In this document: in pieces, positions 39,789 through 45,437 of the stretch
Layout: each line of letters begins with the position of its first letter
How positions within the stretch are numbered: position 1 is the first letter of the stretch
Assembly: GCF_027359575.1 (NCBI RefSeq)
Contig: NZ_CP114784.1
Location: 372,001-436,000 of the forward strand
Direction: 5' to 3'
Origin: Prochlorococcus marinus str. MIT 0917
GTDB lineage: Bacteria; Cyanobacteriota; Cyanobacteriia; PCC-6307; Cyanobiaceae
DNA: 64,000 bases
The notes under the pieces: model-generated
Databases searched by the model: none
What the model saw: the letters and a program-made list of their open reading frames with translations, nothing else
What the model was told of the DNA's origin: nothing
Position numbers and translations under genes: made by a program

Positions 39789-40391
39789 TTACCTAGTTAA
39801 AGCCAAAGCCCAATTAGGAAAGGAAGGGCTCACACCTAAAATATTCTTGGTCAAAGAGGAATTGCACTTAGCGACGATTCCATTGGTAGGAAGATTTGAA
39901 AACAATTCATTCTTGATCCATTGAGAATGCCATCTTTTAACCTGATTAGGATCATCAGTTCTCAGAGTTATAGGAACCTCGAATCCCCAGTTTTGAAGTT
40001 GGGTTAAATCTGACAACTCATCACTGTTTGAGCAAAAAATTTGGAATGCTTTAAATAAAAGAGAAGTATTATTATCAATATTCGAGAATGAGTTCGATAG
40101 CAATTGCTCTATCAAAATATTTGAACTAGAAGAAGGTGAATATAAAATGCCCTCCAACTCAACTTCAACTTTCAAGGAGTCATCAATACTCAAAGGAATA
40201 GAATTTATATTCCTTATATTTTCAACAATCTCACAAGCTTCACGAGAATAAGCATCTACTAATTGGCCATATTTATATCTAAGTCCAATTGCGAAACCAT
40301 CGATTTTGGGCTGTACAACAATGGTTGATCCCTCTGGTAACTTTGCACACCAGCTTGAAAAACAATCTTTATCAAGTCCAAGTAATCTCAT
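39789..40391 (-). CDS. Stand-alone NAD+-DNA-ligase adenylation-domain-like protein, copy 1
   Basis: 200 residues from ATG 40391 (frame open to 40421). It aligns with the nucleotidyltransferase core of LigA: LLGLDKDCFSSW for the PMLSLDNAF block, VVQPKIDGFAIGLRYKYGQL with motif I KxDG and its adenylatable Lys, EIVENIRNINSIPL for the GEDVTANVRTI block, VELEGILYSP, and LPTNGIVAKCNS plus FPNWALALTR for motifs IV-V. Missing are the N-terminal Ia domain, OB fold, zinc finger, HhH and BRCT domains, so it cannot be a complete ligase. Motif IV Asp is Asn. A divergent paralogue is at 44605. Confidence 0.85.
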   Translation of the reverse strand: MRLLGLDKDCFSSWCAKLPEGSTIVVQPKIDGFAIGLRYKYGQLVDAYSREACEIVENIRNINSIPLSIDDSLKVEVELEGILYSPSSSSNILIEQLLSNSFSNIDNNTSLLFKAFQIFCSNSDELSDLTQLQNWGFEVPITLRTDDPNQVKRWHSQWIKNELFSNLPTNGIVAKCNSSLTKNILGVSPSFPNWALALTR

Positions 40392-40421
40392 ATATATATA
40401 AATAGGAAAATATCGAGCCAA

Positions 40422-40782
40422 GTCGCTTCAATAACTTCTTTTCTTAATAAATCGGGAAATATAAAGCTGGTGAAGGTATATCAACATAAAAATAAAAAAA
40501 GGAAAAAGTAATAAGTATAAATTAACAATGTTCTGGATATGTTACTGAGAGGAGATAAACGTAAGTTACCAAAAATTAAATAACCGCTTGAAAATGAACA
40601 TATCTGGCTAGGAAGGGAAAAGTTATGTATAGCTAGATATTTTTCAAATCCTGAAGCTCATACAATGTTTTATAGAAATTGAATAAATAATCAACAAAAA
40701 CATTTTAATTAAACAAAAACAGTATTTATTCTCATGTCTACAAGATATTTATACCATAGTTTTAAAAAATACATCCTTTCTA
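40422..40782. other. Intergenic region with one hairpin
   Basis: No gene seen. ATATCTGGCTA at 40600-40610 pairs with TAGCTAGATAT at 40630-40640 (one mismatch) and is followed by TTTT, which looks like a plus-strand terminator with no coding gene upstream. A short untranslated RNA could end here. Confidence 0.45.
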
Positions 40783-41037
40783 ATGACCATACCAGAGAAA
40801 TATCCGGAGAATGTTCCATGGGATTTAAGAACTGTCGATCAAAGTAAATACAAATCAATTCAATGGATGCTTTCCAAGGCAGACATTGTTTATACATTCT
40901 CAAGGAGTCGTTTAGACGATAATTATGTATACATACAAAGGAACGATGGCAAAAGAAAGGCATATAAAGAATACGAGGCAAGATTTACTTACCAAAGATT
41001 ATTTGACGAGGGATATTCATTGGCTGCCTTTTCCTGA
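40783..41037 (+). CDS. 84-residue 'PWDLR' protein, tandem copy 1
   Basis: MTIPEKYPENVPWDLRTVDQ, then DIVYTFSRSRLDDNYVYIQR and YEARFTYQRLFDEGYSLAAF. It aligns along its whole length with the next gene: KYPE.[VA]PWDL, then [AS][DE]IV.[TF], then ARxTYQ[RQ]L.D[EK]G[YF]. Soluble alpha/beta protein; function unknown. Confidence 0.68.
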   Translation: MTIPEKYPENVPWDLRTVDQSKYKSIQWMLSKADIVYTFSRSRLDDNYVYIQRNDGKRKAYKEYEARFTYQRLFDEGYSLAAFS

Positions 41038-41104
41038 TTGAATAACTAATTATTGACGTTGAAGATCATAAGTGTAGTCTAAAAGATATACTCATTTTTA
41101 ATAC

Positions 41105-41359
41105 ATGCCACGGGTAAAAAGAGAGAAGTATCCAGAAAAGGCTCCATGGGATTTAGGACCATTATCTGAGCATAAATCTCTAGAGAATTGGAGGCTAGTA
41201 AGAGGATCTGAAATTGTCATCTTTGCTAGGAAAGGTGAAGACAACCACTATTTCATCATGCAAAGAGATGATAAAGAGCCTATTGAAATCCTCGCATTTC
41301 AAGCAAGACTCACATATCAACAACTTTTAGATAAAGGCTTCAAACTAGAAGTCTCATAA
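41105..41359 (+). CDS. 84-residue 'PWDLG' protein, tandem copy 2
   Basis: MPRVKREKYPEKAPWDLGPL, then GSEIVIFARKGEDNHYFIMQ and FQARLTYQQLLDKGFKLEVS. Same length and layout as the neighbour 67 bp upstream, from which it is clearly duplicated, but with much sequence divergence. Function unknown. Confidence 0.68.
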   Translation: MPRVKREKYPEKAPWDLGPLSEHKSLENWRLVRGSEIVIFARKGEDNHYFIMQRDDKEPIEILAFQARLTYQQLLDKGFKLEVS

Positions 41360-41397
41360 AAATATCCTCAAAAAATATAAACTATTCTTGTAAAATC

Positions 41398-41598
41398 ATG
41401 ACAGAATTAGAAGAGCTAGAAGACATAGTTGGATGTCTTGAAAGCATAGAGCCATTTGGAATAGAACCAGACTTCAGTTCATTAGGTCTAGAGCCAGCAG
41501 AAGTATTAGGTTTTCAAACTGAAGAAGAATTGGAAAATGCTATAAAACTTCTAACAATGGACGTCAAGCAAAGTAGCCGTGTCCTGATTAATATTTAA
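41398..41598 (+). CDS. Small acidic protein (66 aa)
   Basis: MTELEELEDIVGCLESIEPF, then PDFSSLGLEPAEVLGFQTEE and a C-terminal helix. Strongly acidic and soluble. It follows the tandem pair by 38 bp on the same strand. Function unknown. Confidence 0.6.
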   Translation: MTELEELEDIVGCLESIEPFGIEPDFSSLGLEPAEVLGFQTEEELENAIKLLTMDVKQSSRVLINI

Positions 41599-41661
41599 TA
41601 TATTTATAAAATTCAAAATCAATCAGGTTAACATAGTTAGATAGTTAAGTTGACAAATAAT

Positions 41662-41805
41662 TTAGTGATGTATTTCTTCAATAAGCTCGTTCTCAGATTC
41701 AAATACAGGTCCAGTCCAAATAGTCCAACAGAATATAATCGTGACAGGGCAAAGTAAAATAACAATAAAAGGGGAAAGATATTTTAAGAAATTTATATTA
41801 TGCAT
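41662..41805 (-). CDS. Small membrane protein (47 aa)
   Basis: MHNINFLKYLSPFIVILLCP then VTIIFCWTIWTGPVFESENE and an acidic tail. One membrane helix with Trp at its exit. Coding supported by topology; function unknown. Confidence 0.5.
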   Translation of the reverse strand: MHNINFLKYLSPFIVILLCPVTIIFCWTIWTGPVFESENELIEEIHH

Positions 41806-42064
41806 CTCATTTATAAGTTACTAACATGATAACGTTTGGAAAATCTAATGTCATAAATCTAACAGTTTAATATTGTCAAAAATTTGCAAAAACTTTTATA
41901 AGGTTTGTAAATTAGAAGGAAGTTCCTTAAGAGGTAAATACTGTTATGAATTCTTAAGTGAAGTAAAAAACAAAAGATGCTTACTTAAAAAATTAAAGTA
42001 ATATATTAGCTATACAAAAGCAAGTTGGAATTCACTGAATTGTTAAAGCTAAGAGTAGAAAGTT

Positions 42065-42187
42065 TTATGACTCTTTTTCCTCGAGTTTCTCAAAACATTG
42101 CTTGCACATAATCAACCCTTTCCTCCTCCAGAAAGTTTCAGCTGAATTTTTTTTGCATAATTGACAATGAAATAATTGTTTCTCCAT
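42065..42187 (-). CDS. 40-residue zinc-ribbon-like protein
   Basis: MEKQLFHCQLCKKNSAETFW then RRKGLIMCKQCFEKLEEKES. Two CxxC pairs (CQLC and CKQC) 18 residues apart form a minimal four-Cys zinc site. Soluble. The 470 bp between 41598 and here otherwise hold only the gene at 41662. Nucleic-acid or protein binding is possible, not shown. Confidence 0.6.
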   Translation of the reverse strand: MEKQLFHCQLCKKNSAETFWRRKGLIMCKQCFEKLEEKES

Positions 42188-42205
42188 TGCAAATCTTATC
42201 AATGA

Positions 42206-42316
42206 TTATGCCCAGTCAGTATCTTCTAAAAGAGATGAATATTCTGAACTATCAAAGAAAGTATCCTCGTTAAGAAGATCGTCGACTTCAGCACGAAGCC
42301 AGTAACTTAAAGCCAT
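42206..42316 (-). CDS. 36-residue acidic protein downstream of the hli operon
   Basis: MALSYWLRAEVDDLLNEDTF then FDSSEYSSLLEDTDWA. It lies 19 bp after the last hli gene and shares LLEDTDW with the protein at 32022. It may belong to the hli transcript. Function unknown. Confidence 0.45.
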   Translation of the reverse strand: MALSYWLRAEVDDLLNEDTFFDSSEYSSLLEDTDWA

Positions 42317-42335
42317 TGTAATAAAAAAAGTTAGG

Positions 42336-42461
42336 TCAAACGAAACCTGGAATAATCCAGCCGGTAAATCCATAATTGACTACAGCCGCAAGAAGGCCCA
42401 TCATCGCTAGACGGCCATTCATTATTTCAGCTGTTTTCCAGTAGTTAGTTTCCTTGTTCAT
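42336..42461 (-). CDS. hli: High-light-inducible protein (Hli), 41 aa
   Basis: MNKETNYWKTAEIMNGRLAM then MGLLAAVVNYGFTGWIIPGF. The chlorophyll-binding motif ExxNGRxAM is intact and the chain ends WIIPG in the family style. Hli proteins bind chlorophyll and carotenoid near photosystem II and dissipate excess energy. Its ATG shares the A of the upstream gene's TGA (TGATG), so translation is coupled. The upstream frame to 42521 is not used. Confidence 0.88.
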   Translation of the reverse strand: MNKETNYWKTAEIMNGRLAMMGLLAAVVNYGFTGWIIPGFV

Positions 42462-42610
42462 CACACAAAACCTGGAATGATTTGACCTGTTGTTGCATAA
42501 GCACCAACCAGAGCGATGCATCCAAACAATGCTGCATAACCGTTAAGTCTTTCTGCAGTTACCTTTTCAGGATCAATGTTTCTGTTGTTGTTATTGATTT
42601 TAGTAGTCAT
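42461..42610 (-). CDS. hli: High-light-inducible protein (Hli), 49 aa
   Basis: MTTKINNNNRNIDPEKVTAE, then RLNGYAALFGCIALVGAYAT and TGQIIPGFV. The motif reads AERLNGYAALFG, with Tyr-Ala where most Hli proteins have Arg-x-Ala-Met. Start overlaps the stop of the upstream gene as TAATG. Second last of a five-gene unit. Confidence 0.88.
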   Translation of the reverse strand: MTTKINNNNRNIDPEKVTAERLNGYAALFGCIALVGAYATTGQIIPGFV

Positions 42611-42756
42611 TAAACAACACCCGGAATGATTTGACCGGTTGTTAGATATGCACCTATTAGTGCCCAGCATCCAACAAATGCTGCGTAGCCATTTAGTCTT
42701 TCAGCAATAACTTTGCCTTCTTCAACTCTTGGAGTTTCAGTGATTTGGTTTTTCAT
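42610..42756 (-). CDS. hli: High-light-inducible protein (Hli), 48 aa
   Basis: MKNQITETPRVEEGKVIAER, then LNGYAAFVGCWALIGAYLTT and GQIIPGVV. Close to the downstream neighbour, with the same NGYAA variant. TAATG overlaps at both ends tie it into the operon. Confidence 0.88.
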   Translation of the reverse strand: MKNQITETPRVEEGKVIAERLNGYAAFVGCWALIGAYLTTGQIIPGVV

Positions 42757-42875
42757 TAAACAACACCTGGGATAAGTTGACCAGTTGTCAGGTAGATACC
42801 TGTTAGTAGAACGAATGCCATCATGGCTGGTCTGCCGATGCTTCTTTCTAGGATTGTTTTGTTAGATGGTTGCAT
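42756..42875 (-). CDS. hli: High-light-inducible protein (Hli), 39 aa
   Basis: MQPSNKTILERSIGRPAMMA then FVLLTGIYLTTGQLIPGVV. The motif is ERSIGRPAM, a conservative variant of ExxNGRxAM with Ile for Asn. Its stop overlaps the next start as TAATG. The start at 42875 is chosen because the upstream frame has no Hli features. Confidence 0.85.
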   Translation of the reverse strand: MQPSNKTILERSIGRPAMMAFVLLTGIYLTTGQLIPGVV

Positions 42876-42895
42876 TGTTGTGAGTAGTAATTGGT

Positions 42896-43003
42896 TTAGA
42901 AAATTCCAGGAATGATTTGACCTGTTGTTGCGTATGCACCGAAGGCTGCAACGAAACCAAGCATTGCTGCCCAACCGTTAAATTTTTCTGCTTCTGGAGT
43001 CAT
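42896..43003 (-). CDS. hli: High-light-inducible protein (Hli), 35 aa, operon head
   Basis: MTPEAEKFNGWAAMLGFVAA then FGAYATTGQIIPGIF. It is almost the same as the 35-residue Hli at 52627, which suggests recent duplication or exchange; very similar Hli genes also travel on cyanophages. First gene of the five-gene operon; the 250 bp upstream should carry a light-stress promoter. Confidence 0.9.
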   Translation of the reverse strand: MTPEAEKFNGWAAMLGFVAAFGAYATTGQIIPGIF

Positions 43004-43256
43004 GATGAATTCCGAGATGTGTATGTGAATAAATGTAAACCAATTATTAAACTACGTAAAGCCCTAAAAGTACGGCTTGCCTCATGAATATCAAATTCAG
43101 ACGCAACGGATACAAAAAACATCGTTGATGCAGTCAATCTGACTACACAAATGAGAAATCAAGCCATTAAAAAAAAACCTTCCAGATGAATTAACTAATA
43201 AAAAAAGTGTGACACTAGTGTATATCAGCAGCAGATTTATTTTGTTATCTCAGATT

Positions 43257-43529
43257 TCAGCTATAAAAAAAGTCAATTTCTTTAGCTTGTAATCCATCCC
43301 AACCAGCATTGATTAATCGTGTATTCAAAGTGTCTTGGTCAAAATGTTTAGATCCCGTTTTAACAATACGGTTTCGCATTGATTTCTTAACTCCACTTCT
43401 TTTACGCGCATTTTCTTTATCCATGACATCCCTGTAGAGGGTTAGCATTTCAGATGGTATAGGACTTCCATCTAGATCTAATCCAGCTTGGATAGCGTTA
43501 TCAATTGCATCTGGGCCAGAAAACTCCAC
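43257..43529 (-). CDS. Conserved hypothetical protein (90 aa)
   Basis: MEFSGPDAIDNAIQAGLDLD, then EMLTLYRDVMDKENARKRSG and VKKSMRNRIVKTGSKHFDQD, ending LINAGWDGLQAKEIDFFYS. The basic centre could contact nucleic acid. Soluble; no family recognised. Confidence 0.65.
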   Translation of the reverse strand: MEFSGPDAIDNAIQAGLDLDGSPIPSEMLTLYRDVMDKENARKRSGVKKSMRNRIVKTGSKHFDQDTLNTRLINAGWDGLQAKEIDFFYS

Positions 43530-43617
43530 AATAAAAAAGCGTAGTAGACTTATTCTCCTATCTCATCTACCAAATTTCTGGAATTCTTAGTAGAACGAAG
43601 AAAGGTTATGTGAAATT

Positions 43618-44250
43618 TTACTTTAAGCGATAAATGACTGAAAGATTATTGGCTGGCATATCAATTACGTTATCAAGTTTAAATCCATTTTCAAATGCAA
43701 TATCGTTAACATTTTCTAAGTCACGAAGCCCCCAGAGCGGGTTTTGTATTTTTAAGGATTGATCAAAATTCAAATTACTTTCTGAAGTTTGTTTCTCTTT
43801 TCTTAAGAAAGGTCCATAGAGCATCAAAAAATTACTTTGATCTAAAAAATTCTTTGATTGTTCAAACAAAGATCTTGTACAACTCCATGGTGCGATATGA
43901 ATCATATTTATGCAAACAATTCCTTTAATTAAATCCCCAAGTCGATTAGTAATTGGCCAAGGACGCATTTCTACATCAAGATCAAGAGGTTCCGGCATTT
44001 TTGAATAAAGCCCCTCATGCAAAATCCATGAAGTAATACTTTTTCTATGTAAAAATTCGGGATCACTAGTTTGCCAAGTAATTGATGGGAATTTTTTTTG
44101 AAAGAAAACTCCATGTTCTCCACTACCACTGGCTATTTCTAAAAGCAAGCTATTAGGAGAAATAAAATTGCTTAAAACTGAAGCGATGAAATCACGGTTC
44201 CTTGTCGTGGCAGGAAAATTTAGGCGATAGTCGGGATTTATATTGTCCAT
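43618..44250 (-). CDS. DUF938-family methyltransferase
   Basis: 210 residues: NRDFIASVLSNFI, then LLLEIASGSGEHGVFFQKKF, a clear SAM-binding motif I, WQTSDPEF, INMIHIAPW and LMLYGPFLR. This is the DUF938 (METTL26-like) family, class I SAM-dependent methyltransferases of unknown substrate. Its start overlaps the 3' end of the zinc-ribbon membrane gene by 13 bp, so the two form an operon. Confidence 0.9.
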   Translation of the reverse strand: MDNINPDYRLNFPATTRNRDFIASVLSNFISPNSLLLEIASGSGEHGVFFQKKFPSITWQTSDPEFLHRKSITSWILHEGLYSKMPEPLDLDVEMRPWPITNRLGDLIKGIVCINMIHIAPWSCTRSLFEQSKNFLDQSNFLMLYGPFLRKEKQTSESNLNFDQSLKIQNPLWGLRDLENVNDIAFENGFKLDNVIDMPANNLSVIYRLK

Positions 44251-44513
44251 GAATTATCAATAGTTAACAAGGCTAATGAATTGGAATTGTTTGGATGTTT
44301 TTCCTTAGAAAAATCTTTAATAACAAAAATAATCATTATTAGTAAAGGAGCTATAAATGCGGATGAGGCAACTGCTCCAATAATTCGTCTTGAATTTAAT
44401 AAGGGCTTTTTAACTAATGGATCACCGCAGAGGCCACAAAACAAAACACCATCACTACTGATTTTATGAAATTGATAACGAGAAGAGCAGAAAGGGCAAT
44501 GATATCGGTTCAT
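44238..44513 (-). CDS. Zinc-ribbon membrane protein
   Basis: From ATG 44513: MNRYHCPFCSSRYQFHKISS then GVLFCGLCGDPLV gives two CxxC pairs (CPFC and CGLC), followed by a hydrophobic segment AVASSAFIAPLLIMIIFVIK. A cytosolic zinc ribbon on a membrane anchor. The frame is open to 44534. Function unknown; probably co-translated with the methyltransferase. Confidence 0.72.
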   Translation of the reverse strand: MNRYHCPFCSSRYQFHKISSDGVLFCGLCGDPLVKKPLLNSRRIIGAVASSAFIAPLLIMIIFVIKDFSKEKHPNNSNSLALLTIDNSWTI

Positions 44514-44604
44514 TTCAGATCTTACAAAAAACAAAATTTATCTATATTAAATACGCCTACCATTGTATAAAGCAAACTAATTTGATTAAATGTAGGACTG
44601 AAAA

Positions 44605-45291
44605 ATGAGAGAAGAAAATGAGGTATCAAATCACCTTATAAGGAATCTTGAAAGAATATCTCCAGAAAATTCTATCTGTAATTACAAATATGGAAGAAAA
44701 GCCTTCTTATCATTAGGACAAGGAAATATCCGTGAATGGTTGGAGACATTTCTTCCGAATACAAGAATAATTTTAGAACCAAAAATTATTGGATCAATCA
44801 TTGGCATTCAATATATCAATGGAGAATTAGAAAAGGTGATAAATAAAAATAGTATGGACATTACAGAAAGTGTCAAGTCTTTGAAAATTATTCCTGATAG
44901 CCTACCGATTAAAAACACAATAGAAATACAAGGAGTTCTTTACGACGATCTAAATTTCTCAACTAGAAAAAATGAAACTGAATTTATAGAAATTCATAAT
45001 TTCATATCGCAGTCTAAAAGACTAAAATTTTGCGCTTTTCAAATATGTCATTGCAATATAAATCATTTTCAATCACTTAAAGAGTTAAAACATCTAAAAT
45101 TTGAAATTCCTCAAACTCAATTTACAAACTTCATTTCAGATATCGAAATCTATCTTCAATGCTGGAGAGAGGGTAAGTTATTTAAAAGCTATCCAACAAA
45201 TGGACTAGTATTGAAAATCAATTCAAGAAAATTGCAAAAGTATCTTGGAGAAAATAACCTATCAATACCCTGGGCATACGCCATAAATTAA
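44605..45291 (+). CDS. Stand-alone NAD+-DNA-ligase adenylation-domain-like protein, copy 2 (motif I changed)
   Basis: 228 residues. The same layout as copy 1 at 39789: FLSLGQGNIREWLETFLP, IILEPKIIGSIIGIQYINGE, DITESVKSLKIIPDSLPI, IEIQGVLYDDLN, then YPTNGLVLKINSRKLQ and IPWAYAIN. The KxDG of motif I is KIIG, so the Lys remains but the Asp is gone, and the motif IV Asp is Asn. It probably cannot adenylate as a ligase does. Its stop overlaps the start of the next gene (TAATG), a 48-residue membrane peptide. Divergent from the zinc-ribbon gene. Confidence 0.78.
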   Translation: MREENEVSNHLIRNLERISPENSICNYKYGRKAFLSLGQGNIREWLETFLPNTRIILEPKIIGSIIGIQYINGELEKVINKNSMDITESVKSLKIIPDSLPIKNTIEIQGVLYDDLNFSTRKNETEFIEIHNFISQSKRLKFCAFQICHCNINHFQSLKELKHLKFEIPQTQFTNFISDIEIYLQCWREGKLFKSYPTNGLVLKINSRKLQKYLGENNLSIPWAYAIN

Positions 45292-45437
45292 TGATTATTG
45301 CTACAGCGCAAAAAGCCTCACAAGTAATGGGAGGAGTAGAGATCCTTTCCCCGATGGGATTAACCATCTTAACCATAGGAATACTATTTACAGTAGGCGT
45401 ACCACTAACAATGATTTTAAGAGGAAAGAAAGATTAA
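45291..45437 (+). CDS. 48-residue membrane peptide coupled to ligase-like gene
   Basis: MIIATAQKASQVMGGVEILS then PMGLTILTIGILFTVGVPLT and a basic end RGKKD. One membrane helix. Its ATG shares an A with the TAA of the ligase-like gene, so translation is coupled. Function unknown. Confidence 0.6.
   Translation: MIIATAQKASQVMGGVEILSPMGLTILTIGILFTVGVPLTMILRGKKD

Follow-up and report, generated by a model that had tools for sequence, protein, structure and literature searches.

Two stand-alone LigA-fold proteins of Prochlorococcus, very probably without catalysis, and their separate descent from a compact LigA-like protein of phages and integrating elements

In a 64,000-nucleotide stretch of the Prochlorococcus marinus str. 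MIT 0917 genome (contig NZ_CP114784.1, positions 372,001 to 436,000; here called the window, by whose positions features are located), two genes code for stand-alone proteins that resemble the adenylation domain of LigA, the NAD+-dependent DNA ligase. The protein at 39789 is referred to as copy 1 and the protein at 44605 as copy 2. Both are predicted to have the nucleotidyltransferase fold of LigA, both have lost catalytic residues, both are kept by purifying selection, and each has its own line of descent from a compact LigA-like protein that phages and integrating elements carry. Taken as a whole, the best explanation, which we consider rather probable, is that they are separately recruited, non-catalytic LigA-fold proteins. 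Each copy would have been recruited on its own from a compact LigA-like enzyme that lacks the oligonucleotide-binding (OB) domain and moves on phages and integrase-coupled elements; catalysis would have been lost convergently while residues of the adenine pocket stayed, and the old active-site cleft may now bind, without turnover, an adenylate, a nucleic-acid end that is adenylated or bears a 5'-phosphate, or a protein partner, so that the proteins would act as a regulator or scaffold.

The existence and clade specificity of both genes are already in print. In 2018, two "DNA ligase" loci were listed in a segment specific to the LLI clade in Prochlorococcus NATL2A (PMC6102989, Table 2), and their coordinates coincide with copy 1 and copy 2 of genome G110. 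In the available part of that source the loci are named just DNA ligase, with no domain analysis, inactivation or mobile origin described.

Both proteins match the Pfam family DNA_ligase_aden (PF01653) above its curated cut-off (E = 6.7e-17 for copy 1 and 6.3e-11 for copy 2). They fail the NCBIfam LigA models, with best scores of 57.8 and 44.5 bits, respectively, against cut-offs of 444 and 369, which the complete LigA of the same genome passes. AlphaFold2 models built on 23-row alignments had a mean predicted local distance difference test (pLDDT) score of 89.4 for copy 1 and 81.5 for copy 2, and in Foldseek searches of the PDB the top matches of both were NAD+-dependent ligases (E = 5.7e-15 and 2.0e-13), with a VIA-align Z of 21.3 for copy 2 against a solved NAD+-dependent ligase. 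Since the model alignments included relatives (21 of the 22 non-redundant ones, L127 being left out), they do not provide evidence of the fold that is independent of sequence; the Pfam and structural matches together nevertheless indicate that the resemblance to LigA is not due to chance. The two stand-alone adenylation-like proteins put forward in the original prediction, which had been read from the DNA letters, are thus upheld by profile search and by structure models, in which the predicted fold was found. For copy 1 the start is most likely the ATG at 40391, giving 200 residues, rather than the TTG at 40421, because three orthologs (G181, G177 and G162) carry an in-frame stop upstream of the corresponding Met and because the published NATL2A coordinates begin at that same Met (PMC6102989).

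In the alignment both copies consist of a single domain that ends directly after the last motif, like the compact proteins described below. A Pfam search of the two found no OB fold, zinc finger, helix-hairpin-helix (HhH) or BRCT domain, as had been predicted, and the window's genome holds no separate PF03120 protein, its sole PF03120 OB domain being situated in the complete LigA. Domain Ia, which binds the nicotinamide mononucleotide (NMN) half of NAD+, had been predicted to be lacking as well; this is true of copy 1, whereas copy 2 keeps a remnant in the form of a helix at its N-terminus, which corresponds in the alignment to the latter half of domain Ia, with the conserved residues mostly missing.

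In E. coli LigA the adenylation domain was reported to need K115, D117, G118, E173, K290, Y225 and E113 (PMC5052709, Table 1). These positions were mapped via the genome's own LigA and tabulated for 20 orthologs of copy 1 and 21 of copy 2, with 32 viral, 80 HL and 10 LigA sequences for comparison. D285 and K314, which we take to be further catalytic residues, were tabulated with them. Copy 1 retains K115, G118, G286 and K290 in 20/20 orthologs and the aromatic residue at 225 in 19/20, and has lost E173, D285 (always Asn) and K314 (always Thr) in all 20. Copy 2 retains K115 in 20/21 and G118, the aromatic residue at 225, G286 and K290 in 21/21, and has lost D117 and E173 in every ortholog, D285 in 20/21 (15 Asn, 5 Ser) and K314 in 19/21. 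When both copies are pooled, the motif III Glu is gone from 41/41 sequences, the motif IV Asp from 40/41 and the final motif V Lys from 39/41. Of the domain Ia residues none is left in copy 1, and those of copy 2 are mostly altered. The intact compact proteins have K115, D117, E173, D285 and K314 all present in 32/32 viral and 80/80 HL sequences, and K290 in 29/32 and 80/80.

The changed motif I claimed for copy 2, with Ile in place of Asp, therefore holds in all 21 orthologs. The KIDG motif claimed for copy 1 is present in the window, but position 117 varies among the 20 orthologs (Asp 12, Glu 5, Val 2, Ala 1), and the Asn said to replace the motif IV Asp in both proteins is constant in copy 1 but not in copy 2, where five orthologs have Ser and one keeps Asp. 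The catalytic loss is also wider than first noted, since both also lack the Glu of motif III and the last Lys of motif V. As these two residues and the motif IV Asp are lost in both copies, both are very probably unable to form the Lys-AMP intermediate, and the suggestion that copy 1 might be charged on its Lys while copy 2 is not does not agree with copy 1 having lost the same further residues. The lost residues, those of domain Ia among them, serve chemistry and NAD+ recognition; what is retained appears to include the adenine pocket, namely the motif I Lys, the aromatic residue that stacks on adenine and the Lys in contact with adenine N1. NAD+ binding, another suggested role, is unlikely with few or none of the domain Ia residues left.

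It is conceivable that the motif I Lys, kept in all copy-1 orthologs and all but one copy-2 ortholog, still supports residual nucleotidyl transfer to a different substrate. We regard this as improbable in view of the loss of the motif III Glu, the motif IV Asp and the last Lys from 20/20 copy-1 orthologs and from 21, 20 and 19, respectively, of the 21 copy-2 orthologs; moreover, among nine distant relatives of copy 2, K290 is present in 9/9 and K115 in 5/9, the motif I Lys having been lost too in the other four.

Compact relatives with an intact active site were found in viral sequences. When nine aligned intact compact proteins served as the query against IMG/VR, 43 loci were recovered, of which 37 were examined, the weaker matches L131, L132 and L134-L137 being left out. 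Among the 37 were one 680-residue LigA, three T5-type A subunits and 33 loci with the compact form (L096-L127 and L129); 32 of the latter are complete, 239-289 residues long and stop right after the last motif, and one is cut by a contig end. In 31 of the 33 the compact gene has a gpZ-like minor tail gene as a same-strand neighbour no more than 0.6 kb away, and in the remaining two the contig ends inside the compact gene or 0.6 kb past it. Of the 12 genes from which the gpZ profile was derived, 11 are in loci counted among the 33 and the twelfth (L095) is on the same contig as L096; the gpZ-like gene matched phrog_1924 in all five cases scanned. Compact gene and tail gene make up a module of two genes with DNA ends as its possible target, and a helicase or primase lies upstream in both loci with a long upstream open reading frame (ORF) that was scanned (L103 and L121). 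No OB or C-terminal ligase part was detected in the 33 viral loci with our own profiles, which recover 14/14 OB and 11/14 C-terminal parts in the control sequences that are also their building set and which were applied to the flanks of the genes, not to whole viral genomes. Nor was a separate OB partner found in seven genomes searched, PF03120 occurring in two of them and each time inside a complete LigA. Isolated phages and plasmids held no close relative, all matches being below 60% identity. A 193-residue uncharacterised protein of Synechococcus phage S-CAM8 (BFVD G8EY44) is a structural match to copy 2 (TM-score 0.67 by its own length), and no sequence match to it was found in the S-CAM8 record examined.

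A scan of genome contigs returned 411 relatives, of which the 80 kept are all titled Prochlorococcus or Synechococcaceae. In cyanobacterial genomes the intact form occurs in integrating elements. In G130 (L081:14749-16727) the gene of a 405-residue integrase overlaps the start of an intact compact gene by four bases; the integrase matches phrog_1 (2e-15) and PF00589 (E = 5.9e-6, slightly short of the model cut-off). The pair occurs again in G175 (L281), likewise with a four-base overlap. The G130 element also carries AAA-ATPase, helix-turn-helix (HTH) and Mrr/ParA-like genes. The end of an integrase adjoins an intact copy in G161, in G151 and in the window's own genome, and a tRNA-Pro adjoins the intact gene in the window's genome and in G158. 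The window's genome (G000, 1.92 Mb) has one complete LigA of 690 residues and three stand-alone matches to the LigA adenylation domain. The original prediction knew of only the two in the window; the third, with intact active-site residues and 261 residues in length, lies outside it at C1:554854-555636. The surrounding region (G000:C1:554461-555746, L085) has the adjoining tRNA-Pro and an integrase remnant.

A tree rooted on LigA was made from 66 selected rows, among them 7 of the 20 copy-1, 7 of the 21 copy-2 and 18 of the 33 viral rows, and in it copies 1 and 2 fall among the compact proteins and not with the host LigA (compact group 88/94). Copy 1 clusters with intact integrase-linked copies (support 98/97), and copy 2 falls in a separate branch that contains other intact copies (99/98). 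A single clade of copies 1 and 2, with the distant copy-2 rows, was rejected by the approximately unbiased (AU) test (p-AU 3.3e-6), as was one that included a second HL copy (p-AU 3.1e-10), which has Asn at motif IV and occurs in three of five HL genomes; the test presumes that the group was named beforehand, and the long branches of the distant copy-2 relatives leave the inner order unsure there. From the tree and these rejections, the motif IV Asn arose in at least three lineages, namely copy 1, copy 2 and the second HL copy, and copies 1 and 2 go back independently to a compact LigA-like protein found in phages and integrating elements. The word pair, used of them originally and implying duplication, is not supported.

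The distribution of the two genes was surveyed in 41 genomes of the genus, with at least 75% identity required of copy-1 orthologs and at least 50% of copy-2 orthologs; draft genomes may lack genes through incompleteness. Copy 1 was found in 27 of the 41, once as a partial gene (G172), and copy 2 also in 27; one more genome, G184, has copy 1 in decayed form. Among the 17 good genomes (at least 90% complete and at most 5% contaminated) both copies occur in 15 and neither in G158 and G176. The genes are about 4-5 kb apart and in the same order in six genomes compared closely. No internal stop was found in any copy-2 ortholog, and, counted from the ATG, 26/27 copy-1 orthologs have their full length. 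The ratio of nonsynonymous to synonymous substitution rates (dN/dS), taken by a simple counting method with dS high for copy 1, had a median of 0.115 for copy 1 (190 pairs of 20 orthologs) and 0.395 for copy 2 (210 pairs of 21 orthologs). Against the window copy it was 0.12 for copy 1 (bootstrap 0.09-0.17) and 0.33 for copy 2 (0.24-0.44). LigA of ten genus genomes had a value of 0.20. In a neutral simulation, run on a star tree with substitutions only, 0 (copy 1) and 5 (copy 2) of 5000 simulated copies stayed open. The spread in the genus, the low dN/dS and the neutral simulation together show that purifying selection keeps both copies and that they are not relics of one strain, which agrees with the original view of them as more than decaying fragments.

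That the copies are decaying relics of element-borne genes would fit their mobile origin and the decayed or broken relatives that do exist (G184 with several stops, G135 with five, pieces in G052 and G116), as well as the partial copy 1 of G172. Given the stop-free copy-2 and nearly always full-length copy-1 orthologs, dN/dS values well below 1 and the outcome of the neutral simulation, this is very improbable and, for this genus, already contradicted. As selection preserves catalytically depleted copies, a function in binding or regulating, instead of joining DNA, is suggested.

A different function was also considered, in which the copies are domesticated interference factors, dead versions that compete for the DNA end or the partner of the mobile enzyme and so block incoming elements, the candidate partners contested being the integrase or the gpZ-like tail protein. 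This reading would agree with the repeated, independent capture and inactivation of genes from mobile sources, with a source gene that adjoins a gpZ-like gene in nearly all viral loci and overlaps an integrase gene in two elements, and with the presence of dead and intact copies together in the same genomes. Most defence genes evolve faster than copy 1, whose slow evolution (dN/dS 0.12) counts against it, and ten proteins searched with PADLOC (the three stand-alone copies and seven neighbours of the window copies) gave no match. We hold interference to be unlikely, though not extremely so. A fuller version, in which picocyanobacteria have repeatedly captured a compact enzyme working on DNA ends with the gpZ-like tail protein or the integrase, killed the same positions and kept the dead versions as anti-element proteins, is, taken jointly, slightly less likely again.

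Several observations weigh against recruitment from mobile elements followed by binding without turnover. Of the 14 loci whose copies are intact or P0003-like, 7 gave an integrase match, several of the others being short contigs, and none of the four loci with copy-2-like or HL copies did; tRNA-Pro adjoins the gene directly in two loci only and is about 5 kb away in L083. The copies are dispensable, both being missing from two good genus genomes. Three of the 210 copy-2 pairs have a dN/dS above 1, so that constraint on copy 2 appears weak in places. The motif I Lys is missing in 4 of the 9 distant copy-2 relatives, and cleft binding may thus not be the conserved role. Many conserved residues lie outside the pocket, which fits a protein-protein role equally, and the proposed function is deduced from residue retention alone.

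Like the LigA adenylation domain (PF01653), copies 1 and 2 have the fold, the motif order, the motif I Lys, the adenine-contacting Lys and the aromatic residue; they differ from LigA in the domain Ia residues, the OB, zinc finger, HhH and BRCT domains, the motif III Glu, the motif IV Asp and the final Lys. The split phage ligases, as far as their database entries describe them, have a phage-borne subunit A composed of domain Ia and the nucleotidyltransferase domain (T5 type, phrog_3359; PR1 heterodimeric ligase, PDB 9hu3 and 9i5i). The three T5-type A subunits read are 320-333 residues long and continue past the last motif into the OB part, according to a profile built from them and LigA, unlike the compact relatives, which stop right after that motif. 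A LigA adenylation domain has also been engineered into a sensor, which presumably senses NAD+, is catalytically dead and keeps domain Ia. It was built from a bacterial DNA ligase (PDB 8jyd, as described in the entry). In the literature searched we found no study of the PR1 phage ligase, none of a compact OB-less LigA-like enzyme, and nothing on ligases in work on tycheposons, the name given to such integrating elements.

The HL genomes bear on what the compact protein might do where LigA is missing. Of 151 family genomes, 132 gave a match to the LigA OB domain; among the 95 good ones 89 did, and the six good genomes lacking it are five HL genomes and one fragmented assembly (G087). All five HL genomes (G017, G067, G095, G117 and G136; L306-L310), in which no LigA was found, have an ATP-dependent ligase exactly at the LigA site, between the gene for a 139-residue protein and the VTT-domain and valS genes, and none of the bases there is masked. 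The ligase is 442 residues long in the three read out, and that of G095 matches Pmar-Lig (PDB 6rau) over residues 2-442 (E = 2.6e-290). At least in these five genomes an ATP-dependent ligase stands in place of LigA, the presumed replicative ligase. An intact compact copy is also present in all five. That it might be the only ligase of the cell is ruled out by the ATP-dependent ligase, and as these genomes have no LigA OB domain, the compact HL protein cannot be a helper of LigA there. In 74 of 80 HL loci (L139-L218) a conserved 37-residue peptide has a start that overlaps the intact copy's stop.

The features of the window are given in Table 1.

Table 1. Location of the two LigA-like genes, their motif I and motif IV codons and the coupled peptide gene in the window.
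Feature	Position	Strand	Description
Copy 1	39789..40391	-	200-residue stand-alone LigA-type nucleotidyltransferase-fold protein, predicted inactive
Copy 1 motif I Lys codon (K29 of KIDG)	40305..40307	-	Lys in 20/20 copy-1 orthologs
Copy 1 motif IV codon (N170)	39882..39884	-	Asn replacing Asp; Asn in 20/20 orthologs
Copy 2	44605..45291	+	228-residue stand-alone LigA-type nucleotidyltransferase-fold protein, predicted inactive
Copy 2 motif I KII (then G)	44782..44790	+	Ile replacing Asp; Lys in 20/21, Ile in 21/21 orthologs
Copy 2 motif IV codon (N199)	45199..45201	+	Asn replacing Asp; Asn 15, Ser 5, Asp 1 of 21 orthologs
48-residue single-span membrane peptide	45291..45437	+	Start overlaps copy-2 stop (TAATG)

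The coupling of copy 2 to the membrane peptide, pointed out originally, was found in 21/21 genus orthologs (20 with TAATG and one with a four-base overlap), and of the window's 30 ORFs of at least 150 residues copy 2 alone has a short hydrophobic ORF coupled to it. As a dedicated partner of copy 2 the peptide is weakened as a candidate. Relatives of it occur in 15 genomes of other genera, and at the two such loci read (L274 and L275) no ligase-like gene was found in the 3.1 kb examined, so the peptide does not appear tied to a ligase-like protein; it was also found beside none of the nine distant copy-2 relatives examined. The overlap may only reflect shared expression. Copy 2 is also adjoined by a DUF938 gene (PF06080, 43618-44250), relatives of which are also found close to ligase-like copies of two other genera (L071 and L088). 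Between the two copies, at 42206-42974, small overlapping ORFs resemble high-light-inducible proteins, mostly by eye, with a Pfam match only at 42336-42521 (Chloroa_b-bind) and with matches in five other genus genomes compared.

Prochlorococcus is a very abundant photosynthetic organism, and genes that are listed in it as DNA ligases would be reclassified as probable non-enzymes. The intact relatives point to a compact, OB-less LigA-like enzyme whose gene is a close neighbour of a tail gene in phages and of integrases in islands, and the activity of which is directly testable. Parallel inactivation of one such enzyme across lineages would offer a clean setting in which to learn why a dead nucleotidyltransferase is kept.

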